Shown here one piece after another: positions 11,001 to 24,149 of a DNA stretch of 32,762 nucleotides. Both the position numbers and the translations under genes were made by a program. Source of the stretch: Candidatus Aenigmatarchaeota archaeon (GTDB taxonomy: Archaea > Aenigmatarchaeota > Aenigmatarchaeia > GW2011-AR5 > JACRMX01); NCBI GenBank assembly GCA_018304635.1, contig JAGVVW010000008.1:1-32762 (forward strand). The letters are read 5' to 3'. Under the pieces are notes generated by a model. The model had not been told where the DNA came from and did no database searches. It was given only the letters and a program-made list of their open reading frames with translations. Positions within the stretch are counted from its first letter, which is position 1. Each line of letters opens with the position of its first letter.

Positions 11001-11090
11001 GCAACCTTTTTGCAAGACTTATGAACTAATCTATGCAAAAACGTTGACGAAAATATATTATTTTTCTCAGCAACCTTTTTGCAAGATTTT
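11001..11090 (+). repeat. Dispersed palindromic repeat, copy 2
   Basis: GCAACCTTTTTGCAAGA occurs at 11001 and again at 11070 (69-bp period). TTTTTGCA (11007-11014) pairs with TGCAAAAA (11034-11041) across 19 nt, and then ACGTTGACGAAAATATATTA follows. Compared with copy 1, both stem strands have changed together (GG/CC to GCA/TGC), which supports a selected hairpin. Confidence 0.8.
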
Positions 11091-16688: not shown

Positions 16689-16885
16689 TAACCCTTCTTG
16701 GAGAATTAAAATTTAAAACTACCAAAAGCGTTAATGGAAAAAATATTATTTTCTTTAGTAACCCTTTTTGGAGAATTAAAATTTAAAGCTACCAACAGCC
16801 TTTTTGGAGAATAGTGTTGTTGAACTCTATGACTTTGCATCTACCAAAAACCCCGGGGAAAAATATATCTAAATAAAATATAAAA
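16689..16885 (+). repeat. Dispersed palindromic repeat, copy 3 (three successive units)
   Basis: Units begin at 16689, 16759 and 16798. The first two share AACCCTTYTTGGAGAATTAAAATTTAAA and CTACCAA; in the third, TTTTTGG (16801-16807) pairs with CCAAAAA (16844-16850). Stems in the first two are eroded. The GTTGACG block is altered to GTTAATGG in unit 1 and CCCCGGGG in unit 3. The left edge abuts the start codon of the methyltransferase gene. About 70 further nt to 16957 hold nothing recognisable. Confidence 0.75.
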
Positions 16886-20858: not shown

Positions 20859-23093
20859 ATGTCAAGAGTCGTGGGTAGTACAAAATCTATGATATTTGTC
20901 GTTTTATTGTTTATTTTATTAACTGTATTTTTTGTTTTTTACAGGGATTTGCTGTTTTTTCCAAGTGGAAATTTTTCTTCAACTACTACAACTTCAACCA
21001 GCACTACAACAAGTACAACAACGAGTACATCCACAACTATAAGTTCGATAACGACAACTACGAGTACGACAACCACGAGTACGACAACAATAACTACAAC
21101 AACGATAGTTCCTTCTTTTGATCAATGGGTATTGATAGGTCCGGGAAGTTCTGGTCTTAGTCCGAGTATTGTTCAGTCAGGAAATAATATATATTTAGTA
21201 ATTAATTGTGGCGGGGCAAGAGTAAGCAGGGATTCGGGTGAAACATGGCAATTTGCAAACAAAGGATTTGATTATCAGAAATTCGGTTCAGATGCAGATG
21301 ATATGCAGGTTATAGAACCACATCCGAAAATCAAAGATCTTGTTTTTGCCGGAGGAAAAACAGGTGTATATAGAAGTACGGATAATGCTTTAACATGGTC
21401 ACGTGTTTTATCCGGAGAAGAAGCAAAAATTGGTGACATAGCTTTCAACCCCTTAAATAATAATATTATTTACGCTGCTACCGGCAGACTTGATGCTAAT
21501 GAACCATATAATAATGTGGCAAAATCCGAAGGAATTATTTGGCGAAGCGATGATAAAGGTTTAACATGGATCGAAGCGGGAAAAATAGAAAATGCAAATA
21601 TATATTCTTTGGCGATATCTCCGGAAAATAAAATTTATGCTGCTACAAACACAGGATTATGGAAAAGTCTGGATAATGGAAAATCATGGCAAAAACTTTC
21701 TGGCCTTCCTCATGATCGTCCAGTGACTGTAAAATTAGACAGATTTGATCCAAAAACAATTTACGTTGTTCTGCTTACAAATCCTCAAAATAAAGGAGGA
21801 GTATGGAAAAGCATTGATGAGGGAGAGACCTGGCGAGATATTACTTCAAATCTTATCAGTCCCAGAATTATTAGACCCGGAAAGGAAGTTTACAATGTTA
21901 TTCAGTATAAAGATTTTGAACAGCACCCAACTGATAATAATACGATTTTCATTACTTCTCTGTATATTAAAGGCGGAGGAATCTGGGTTTCCAGGAACAA
22001 CGGTTCCAGCTGGGAAAGCCTGACAACAGAAGAAAATATGGCAGAGGGATGGGCTGACAACAAACAGTTTTTCGGCATAGATCTAAGTATTAACGAGTAT
22101 AATCCACTGGAAATGGTTTTCACATCAGGTGGGGAATCCAATGGGTTTAAAACAATAGATGGTGGAAAAACATGGGTTCCTCTGCATACGAAAAAAACAG
22201 GTGTTGTTCAGGGAAAAAATACTTATTCCAATAAAGGCATGGAAAGCTATAAAGGTGCAATAGCTGTTCATCCTGATAATACAGGTATCATTCTATTAGG
22301 ATACGGTGACCATGGAATTTTCAAAAGCGTTGATGGTGGCAAAAATTTTTTCAGGGTTGCAGACAAGGCTTCAGATGCTAATTTTATACGCTTTTCAATC
22401 GCAGACCCAAACAAAGTATATATGGTTTCATGGCAGCCTGAAAAAAATATGTGGATAAGCAATGATGCAGGGTCAACATGGGAATTAAGAAATCAGGATA
22501 ACATGGAAATGCTTGATGTTCTGCCGCATCCGAGAAAAAAAGATATTGCTTTTGCTGTATCCAACAAAGGATTGCTTAAAACTGAAAATGGAGGTGACAC
22601 ATGGAAAGCTATTGAAATACCGGATGCAAAAAATATAAAATCCATTTCATTTATGAATAATAAACTTTTGTTTGCTGCCGGAGGAAAGGAAGTCTATATG
22701 AGTTCAAATGACGGGTCAACGTGGTTGCTGGCTTATAAATTTGATGCATCTGTAAGAATTTATTCTGTTTTTAGTCCGAAAAGCAATATATTTGTGGCAA
22801 CTGATGATGGTGTTTATAAATCAGAAGTTACAAACGAAAAGATAAATGAATGGTTTCTTGTTCTACCGGAAAAAGGTATGACAATTGTTAACGGTGGAGG
22901 TGATTTTGTTTATAGTGCATCTTTTAATGGCAATGGCATATGGATGTCAAGACTGAATGGAAATTCCGGGACATGGACACAAATAACTGGTGAGTGGTCA
23001 GGTGACATAGAACACATGACAGCTGACCCGAAAAATCCAAATATTGTATATGCATCAGGAAAATGTGCAGGCGTATGGAAAAGAGTTAATTGA
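20859..23093 (+). CDS. Membrane-anchored or secreted Asp-box beta-propeller protein
   Basis: 744 residues from ATG 20859, chosen because the TTTAAATATTATATA box lies 20-30 nt upstream; an in-frame ATG at 20826 overlaps that box. One hydrophobic helix (about 11-31) acts as signal or anchor. It is followed by a Thr/Ser-rich linker (about 42-85), probably O-glycosylated and extended. The rest is a repeat domain with 11 Asp-box motifs of the S-x-D-x-G-x-T-W type, such as SRDSGETW, SDDKGLTW, SIDEGETW, TIDGGKTW, SNDAGSTW and SSNDGSTW. This gives a sortilin/GH74-like beta-propeller pair facing outside the cell. Whether it is an enzyme or a binding surface protein cannot be told. Confidence 0.82.
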   Translation: MSRVVGSTKSMIFVVLLFILLTVFFVFYRDLLFFPSGNFSSTTTTSTSTTTSTTTSTSTTISSITTTTSTTTTSTTTITTTTIVPSFDQWVLIGPGSSGLSPSIVQSGNNIYLVINCGGARVSRDSGETWQFANKGFDYQKFGSDADDMQVIEPHPKIKDLVFAGGKTGVYRSTDNALTWSRVLSGEEAKIGDIAFNPLNNNIIYAATGRLDANEPYNNVAKSEGIIWRSDDKGLTWIEAGKIENANIYSLAISPENKIYAATNTGLWKSLDNGKSWQKLSGLPHDRPVTVKLDRFDPKTIYVVLLTNPQNKGGVWKSIDEGETWRDITSNLISPRIIRPGKEVYNVIQYKDFEQHPTDNNTIFITSLYIKGGGIWVSRNNGSSWESLTTEENMAEGWADNKQFFGIDLSINEYNPLEMVFTSGGESNGFKTIDGGKTWVPLHTKKTGVVQGKNTYSNKGMESYKGAIAVHPDNTGIILLGYGDHGIFKSVDGGKNFFRVADKASDANFIRFSIADPNKVYMVSWQPEKNMWISNDAGSTWELRNQDNMEMLDVLPHPRKKDIAFAVSNKGLLKTENGGDTWKAIEIPDAKNIKSISFMNNKLLFAAGGKEVYMSSNDGSTWLLAYKFDASVRIYSVFSPKSNIFVATDDGVYKSEVTNEKINEWFLVLPEKGMTIVNGGGDFVYSASFNGNGIWMSRLNGNSGTWTQITGEWSGDIEHMTADPKNPNIVYASGKCAGVWKRVN

Positions 23094-23095
23094 TT

Positions 23096-23104
23096 TTTAA
23101 AGTT
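23096..23104 (+). promoter_or_regulatory. TATA-like box of the tRNA-Ala gene
   Basis: TTTTAAAGT lies about 23-31 nt before the first base of the tRNA-Ala (23127), just after the stop of the beta-propeller gene. This is the normal spacing for archaeal transcription. Confidence 0.45.
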
Positions 23105-23163
23105 CTATTAGATAAAATAAACCAATGGGCTGGTAGATCAACTGGAAGATCGCTTCCATGGCA

Positions 23164-23293
23164 CAACCTTTTTGAAGAATTGAAATCTGCATCTATCAAA
23201 AACGTTGACGAAAAATATTATAGATGAAGAAAAAAGCATGTATGGAAAAAAGAACAGTTGCAATCCTTTGATTTGTATATTAAAAATCCAGAA
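23164..23293 (+). other. tRNA-Ala intron 1 (37/38), made of the dispersed repeat (copy 4)
   Basis: The intron starts CAACCTTTTTGAAGAATTGA. TTTTTGA (23169-23175) pairs with TCAAAAA (23196-23202), followed by CGTTGACGAAAAATATTA; a decayed second start GTTGCAATCCTTTGA lies at 23258. This is the dispersed repeat with another co-varied stem. Junction structure: exon TGG (23159-23161) pairs with intron CCA (23288-23290), bulge CAC (23162-23164) is cut after A, and bulge AAT (23292-23294) is cut after the second A. Confidence 0.85.
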
Positions 23294-23315
23294 TGGAAGA
23301 GGCTGCGAGTTCAAG

Positions 23316-23431
23316 CTAACCTTTCTTTTCAAACGAAAGACGCATCTTCGATGCGTCAAGTCGTTAAAGAAAGCTTAAGGTCACCAAAGAAAGACATCTG
23401 GCTTTGCATATAAAATGAAAGGCTATGAAAA
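23316..23431 (+). other. tRNA-Ala intron 2 (59/60, T-loop)
   Basis: Exon TTCA (23310-23313) pairs perfectly with intron TGAA (23426-23429). The 3-nt bulges AGC (23314-23316) and AAT (23430-23432) hold the cut sites. An inner helix TAACCTTTC (23317-23325) pairs with GAAAGGCTA (23417-23425) with one mismatch. Inside is a perfect hairpin GACGCATC/GATGCGTC (23339-23357). This is a textbook bulge-helix-bulge at a non-canonical site. Confidence 0.85.
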
Positions 23432-23445
23432 TCTCGTCCAGTCCA

Positions 23446-23550
23446 TTGCATCTTTTTCAAGAATTAAAATATATGTCTATGAAAAACGTGCACGAAAAAT
23501 ATTATTTTTATCAGACACCTTTTTCAAGAATTAAAATATATGTCTATTGT
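23446..23550 (+). repeat. Dispersed palindromic repeat, copy 5, abutting tRNA-Ala 3' end
   Basis: TTGCATCTTTTTCAAGAATT begins one base after A73. TTTTTCA (23453-23459) pairs with TGAAAAA (23480-23486), then CGTGCACGAAAAATATTATT follows. The second direct repeat starts near 23515 (67-bp period). The stem bases differ again from other copies, yet stay paired. The rest of the gap to 23692 holds nothing else I can name. Confidence 0.8.
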
Positions 23551-23795: not shown

Positions 23796-24149
23796 ATGAT
23801 GATAATAAAAAAAAATAAAGCTGTACTTATCACCTTTGATACGGACAAAAATAAATTTAAATCCGATTATGAGCGAAATAAATTTTACCGCGGACTACAT
23901 GGCTGGAAGCAGATAATTCCGGCTGAAAAAGGAAATTATTGCTATGACAGGAAAGGTTTGTTGAATGATATTCCACATATCAAGGTTGCGGATTCAGCTT
24001 TTATAGTTGAACTGCGAAATATGCAAAAGATGATGGATTATTTTGAAGAATGGGCTGATAAGGTTCATTGTGAGATGATGCGAATAACACTGGATCATAT
24101 GAAGATAACTGAAATGAGAAAAAAGGGGCATCATGTGGAAATAGAGTAG
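23796..24149 (+). CDS. Hypothetical protein, possible ferredoxin-like fold
   Basis: 117 residues with no signal or membrane helix. The start is supported by GAGGGTGAT 7 nt upstream. The order of elements looks like beta (KAVLITFDTD)-alpha (SDYERNKFYRGLHG)-beta (WKQIIPAEKG), then beta (SAFIVELRN)-alpha (MQKMMDYFEEWADKV)-beta (CEMMRITL). That order fits a ferredoxin-like fold such as in Cas2/VapD-type proteins, but no family-specific motif proves this and no cas genes are near. It has the most elaborate control region in the window (spaced palindrome and leader hairpin). It lies 116 nt upstream of the CDC48 gene on the same strand. Confidence 0.65.
   Translation: MMIIKKNKAVLITFDTDKNKFKSDYERNKFYRGLHGWKQIIPAEKGNYCYDRKGLLNDIPHIKVADSAFIVELRNMQKMMDYFEEWADKVHCEMMRITLDHMKITEMRKKGHHVEIE

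Follow-up and report, generated by a model that had tools for sequence, protein, structure and literature searches.

A probable tRNA-Ala(GGC) gene with two introns in a DPANN archaeon and a dispersed hairpin repeat in its intron sequence

Organization of the locus

The window, the whole stretch of 32,762 nucleotides that was analysed, belongs to a genome of 1.08 Mb in 52 contigs that is 88% complete. The host is a DPANN archaeon. The valyl-tRNA synthetase of the window groups within DPANN in our tree, with mixed phylum labels among the nearest rows, and similar tRNA-Ala genes are present in two genomes labelled Aenigmatarchaeota. Between an ORF ending at position 23093 and an ORF starting at 23796 lie 702 nt, which had been noted as an apparent gap of about 700 bp. 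Three separated segments of a tRNA-Ala(GGC) gene are found there (Table 1). The joined exons give a 73-nt sequence that ARAGORN calls tRNA-Ala(ggc), with an acceptor stem of 7 bp, a D stem of 4 bp, and anticodon and T stems of 5 bp each. The tRNA-Ala identity features, the G3-U70 pair and A73, are present in the joined sequence, and the three-segment tRNA of the preliminary description is thereby confirmed. The 246 nt removed consist of introns of 130 and 116 nt. The gene had been described as easily missed, and on the unspliced window neither ARAGORN nor Rfam at the gathering score gave a tRNA call at the locus.

Table 1. Features of the tRNA-Ala(GGC) locus and copies of the hairpin element in the window
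Feature	Position	Strand	Description
TATA-like sequence TTTTTAAA, putative promoter	23094..23101	+	about 29 nt upstream of the tRNA; read by eye
Exon 1, tRNA positions 1-37	23127..23163	+	acceptor 5' strand, D arm, 5' anticodon stem, anticodon GGC, A37
Intron 1, 130 nt, site 37/38	23164..23293	+	dispersed hairpin element at its start
Hairpin element copy inside intron 1	23164..23222	+	CAAC-c-TTTTTGA...TCAAAAA-c-GTTG, then ACGAAAAATATTA
3' half, relaxed BHB of intron 1	23288..23299	+	CCAG with U33-G35 (3 bp plus A.G), bulge AA^T, anticodon stem GGAAG
Exon 2, tRNA positions 38-59	23294..23315	+	U38, 3' anticodon stem, variable loop, 5' T stem, T loop to G59
5' half, canonical BHB of intron 2	23305..23325	+	T stem GCGAG, central helix TTCA, bulge AG^C, inner helix TAACCTTTC
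Intron 2, 116 nt, site 59/60 in the T loop	23316..23431	+	homologue of the tRNA-Val(GAC) 59/60 intron
3' half, canonical BHB of intron 2	23417..23437	+	inner helix GAAAGGCTA, central helix TGAA, bulge AA^T, T stem CTCGT
Exon 3, tRNA positions 60-73	23432..23445	+	U60, 3' T stem, acceptor 3' strand, A73; CCA not encoded
Second hairpin element copy	23448..23506	+	directly behind the tRNA gene
Third hairpin element copy	23515-23547		truncated, after the second copy
Further hairpin element copies	4-63, 11003-11060, 16690-16748, 16796-16870

We ran a mechanical search that required acceptor, D, anticodon and T stems together with a T loop split by a BHB. It gave one match in the real window and four matches in 4173 dinucleotide-preserving shuffles. 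A relative has an uninterrupted tRNA-Ala(GGC) to which the joined tRNA is 89% identical. In an alignment with seven relatives, whose exons were joined using the tRNA structure as a guide (introns removed where present), so that pair counts need a cautious reading, the stem pairs are standard in all 168 cells (21 pairs in eight tRNA-Ala(GGC)) and double-sided changes occur at 11 of the 21 pairs, against a shuffled mean of 4.1. Of these 11 covarying pairs, the anticodon stem contributes four and the T stem three; these are the stems that the introns interrupt. The G-U pair G3-U70 is unchanged in all eight sequences.

The preliminary description had named a second, uninterrupted tRNA-Ala(GGC), combined with a lack of spliced reads from this locus, as a finding that would speak against it. 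A search of the 88%-complete genome with the joined tRNA revealed no further tRNA-Ala(GGC), the next match having E = 0.13, and the gene is the only one detected there for the GCC and GCU codons. Due to the incompleteness, another copy could be missing from the assembly. The locus contains hairpin repeats that are also found outside tRNA genes, and one could read it as a dead tRNA gene disrupted by these repeats, with an intact tRNA-Ala(GGC) elsewhere serving the cell. We regard this as very improbable. The stems have no disabling change, both interrupted stems carry compensatory changes, the BHB is intact, no second copy was found, and further tRNA genes here have the same appearance. From the observed sequence, pairing, BHB geometry, encoded enzymes and shared intron sequence, we read the locus as a functional tRNA-Ala(GGC) gene with two archaeal BHB introns, with a probability of about 0.93.

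Splice sites and splicing enzymes

The BHB geometry places the intron boundaries at 37/38 and 59/60, the sites that had been proposed. Intron 2 has a canonical BHB, composed of the T stem GCGAG/CUCGU, a 4-bp UUCA/UGAA helix, and the 3-nt bulges AG^C and AA^U. Its inner helix, UAACCUUUC/GAAAGGCUA, is paired at eight of nine positions with one A.C mismatch. This motif appears unforced in the best fold of the 319-nt precursor when the cloverleaf alone is imposed. At 37/38, a strict BHB is not formed. The UGG/CCA helix has 3 bp plus an A.G mismatch, and a local hairpin at the start of intron 1 stands in place of an inner helix. Because the inner helix is lacking and the helix has only 3 bp, we classed the motif as relaxed (hBH-like). 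Adding the UGG/CCA helix to the precursor fold has zero energy cost. The unconstrained precursor fold is 5.7 kcal/mol more stable and has the D and anticodon arms mispaired, which calls for caution toward the proposed fold.

The host genome encodes RtcB and EndA. The EndA is a single alpha-like protein of 186 aa with two domains, encoded at L112:1474-2034 on the minus strand. It has an insert before a His residue that we take to be catalytic. The insert aligns without gaps to 3iey_A, presumably the N. equitans EndA alpha subunit, and is absent from 1a79, which we take to be an archaeal EndA. Searches of the 88%-complete genome at E up to 10 gave no second EndA-like gene or beta subunit besides one weak match (C31), which was rejected since its ORF reads as a glycosyltransferase. 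Relaxed motifs are said to require (alpha-beta)2 or epsilon2 EndA (PMC6379350), and the relaxed 37/38 BHB alongside an alpha-like protein as the only EndA found counts against splicing.

Judging from the mechanism of these enzyme families, we infer that EndA cuts and RtcB joins the tRNA in the host. Transcription would start from the TATA-like box, and the 319-nt precursor would fold with every exon-intron boundary in a BHB motif. EndA would then release intron 1 by cuts behind A37 and in front of U38, and intron 2 by cuts behind G59 and in front of U60; the three exons would be ligated by RtcB to the 73-nt tRNA. CCA would presumably be added to the spliced product.

Interrupted tRNA genes in the genome and its relatives

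The double intron highlighted in the preliminary description is real but does not stand out in this genome: almost all tRNA genes that we read are interrupted. Among about two dozen genes, tRNA-Val(CAC) is the only uninterrupted one, in a partial census of stretches around search candidates; these were partly picked for intron-like repeats, so the count is not an unbiased rate. A 59/60 intron with perfect T stem, acceptor and central helix is present in 11 tRNA genes, tRNA-Ala(GGC) and 10 others that share its BHB layout. The last bulge residue is T60 in 11 of 11, which the filter did not demand. Three introns each (D loop, 37/38 and 59/60) are apparent in tRNA-Glu(CTC) (L034:782) and tRNA-Leu(CAA) (L044:3506, minus strand). 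Eight tRNAs of this genome score above the Rfam cut-off, compared with three in one genome of the same family and 5-40 in other relatives.

The tRNA-Ala genes of relatives also have 37/38 introns, some with a plain hairpin directly after the 5' splice site (L015, L016, and L019), and the T loop is uninterrupted in the tRNA-Ala(GGC) loci of relatives that were read. One Aenigmatarchaeota-labelled genome has a tRNA-Ala(TGC) whose T loop is split, at the site of intron 2 here, by an intron of 55 nt with AAU as the 3' bulge (L113, genome of L069). A tandem duplication of the intron 3' part and the 3' exon, 50 nt apart, was seen at another tRNA locus (L026, genome G021).

A dispersed hairpin element

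The element at the start of intron 1 is about 60 nt long; the preliminary description did not mention dispersed repeats in the introns. With a covariance model, 52 copies were detected in the genome at E < 1e-5, and the best match of the model across 39 relatives is weak (E = 1e-5). Most of the copies listed alongside intron 1 in this genome show 72-88% identity to it across some 60 nt. In a typical copy, 3-5 bp form an outer stem, which a C.C or CC.CC mismatch separates from an inner stem of 7-8 bp; the loop is AGA...CTA, and the tail (A)CGGAAAAATATTA follows the hairpin. The outer arms differ among copies and keep their complementarity, with 59 of 66 pairs being Watson-Crick against 42.6 in shuffled arms (P = 5e-5), in a test that leans towards pairing because the alignment of each copy was chosen first. 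Arms that vary yet remain complementary point to a strand that folds and not to a conserved sequence at the ends.

At least 13 copies are located in tRNA introns or directly after a TTCRA T loop, and both T-loop and D-loop introns contain the element. Other copies are nested in the loops of copies, arranged in tandem, or, in the majority, placed outside recognised tRNA genes. The T-loop intron of tRNA-Thr(CGT) consists of tandem copies, two full and one truncated (L042:192-312, minus strand). Many tRNA introns, here and in relatives, open with elements of this architecture whose sequence differs. Hairpin elements of this architecture also lie directly upstream of endA in the opposite orientation (L112:2065-2220).

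We considered several known identities for the element and rejected them. It is not a BHB by itself, as its mismatches are 1x1 or 2x2 internal loops and not 3-nt bulges on opposite strands. A box C/D or H/ACA guide RNA was rejected because no boxes were seen by eye and Rfam had no match in the window. The variation of the outer arms between copies led us to reject a transposon with fixed terminal repeats.

Origin of the intron sequence

The 59/60 intron of tRNA-Val(GAC) (L153:49-350, inner BHB helix of at least 9 bp) matches intron 2 of tRNA-Ala at both ends and over most of the sequence, although the tRNA bodies differ. The Ala intron has an extra hairpin of about 31 nt compared with Val(GAC), which recurs in the D-loop intron of tRNA-Gln(CTG). 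With the dispersed element in intron 1 and an intron 2 shared with tRNA-Val(GAC), a gain of introns by transposition is likely, in which past insertion of repeats would have supplied the intron sequence. The sequences suggest that this transposition may be linked to the dispersed hairpin repeat.

In eukaryotes, introner elements are short dispersed repeats that double as spliceosomal introns in unrelated protein genes. The element described here appears comparable in being a short dispersed repeat that also serves as intron sequence in unrelated genes, whereas its introns are of the BHB type in tRNA genes and its mobility is putative. We hypothesized that it may be an archaeal introner. It would insert into the T, D and anticodon loops of tRNA genes and into its own loop, a BHB would form around it, and tRNA introns would arise. 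Two such steps might be visible in tRNA-Ala, namely the copy in intron 1 and the hairpin that intron 2 has in addition to the Val(GAC) intron. This proposal is tentative, and we think it is rather more apt to fail than to hold.

The introns could also be old and vertically inherited, and their likeness across the genome could reflect a shared structural need for a hairpin near the splice site instead of recent movement. The 37/38 introns in the tRNA-Ala of relatives, some with the plain hairpin behind the 5' splice site, agree with such a history, as does the repetition of the hairpin architecture in other families despite little sequence identity. However, the 72-88% identity of most listed copies here contrasts with the weak matches in the 39 relatives, and most copies are outside recognised tRNA genes, some of them tandem or nested. 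One T-loop intron is common to Ala and Val in spite of different tRNA bodies, and the tRNA-Ala(GGC) T loops read in relatives are uninterrupted. Vertical inheritance seems unlikely to us.

A movement at the DNA level is a serious possibility, which we place somewhat short of an even chance. The hairpins may be a REP-like or MITE-like repeat moved by a single-strand transposase, and those in tRNA genes may be tolerated because BHB splicing removes them. The nested and tandem copies, the copies outside tRNA genes, and the hairpin form with mismatches and covarying arms are consistent with such a repeat. The genome has one match to a Y1 (IS200/IS605-type) transposase domain (L157, G000:C7:7388-7522). 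However, it is a partial match that spans positions 77-120 of 121, there is no tie between Y1 and the repeat, and no fixed insertion or target sequence was seen by eye in the element flanks. Movement as RNA, by reverse splicing and then copying into DNA, fits as well.

Relation to known systems

The existence of two introns in one archaeal tRNA, for which the preliminary description pointed to Thermoproteales, agrees with the literature, including site 59/60. A tRNA of Thermoproteales can carry as many as three introns, and the non-canonical intron sites known there include 59/60. Large-scale intron transposition was proposed because introns of different tRNAs resemble each other (PMC4090602, PMC4033280, citing Sugahara 2007/2008, Fujishima 2010). 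According to PMC4090602, the mechanism of such transposition is still unknown. The present genome resembles the Thermoproteales described there in having several BHB introns per tRNA, site 59/60, and similar introns in different tRNAs. It differs in its DPANN host, in the intron sequence being a covarying hairpin repeat mostly outside recognised tRNA genes, and in that only an alpha-like EndA was found. Since multi-intron tRNAs and site 59/60 are already known, the double-intron tRNA-Ala gene adds to a known kind.

Atabeyarchaeia and Freyarchaeia (Asgard) are reported to have introns in 92-95% of tRNA genes (PMC11291895). As in these archaea, nearly all tRNA genes read here are interrupted, often at non-canonical sites and more than once. 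They are, however, an unrelated lineage, and the sections of that report consulted do not mention a dispersed repeat for them. ARMAN-1 and -2 are likewise small DPANN-type archaea with multiple and relaxed-BHB introns (PMC4033280, PMC6379350). Unlike their epsilon2 EndA, the enzyme here is a single two-domain protein and not a three-unit epsilon protein. For one tRNA of Caldiarchaeum, disruption has been modelled as the work of a mobile element, which similarly ties intron gain to a repeated genomic element (PMC3293823). That element is 1.8 kb long, has a recombinase gene and integrates at the tRNA, whereas the hairpins here are about 60 nt without coding capacity. We found no description, in the open-licence literature searched, of intron sequence that is also a covarying hairpin repeat outside tRNA genes.

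Implications

The finders that we used miss tRNA-Ala(GGC) and many other tRNAs of this genome. Counts of tRNAs for genomes of this kind can therefore be badly underestimated. The covarying repeat occurs outside tRNA genes and often at the same T-loop site within them, which makes the question of intron transposition testable by strain comparison. The dispersed hairpin repeats in the introns suggest a route by which such introns may spread.
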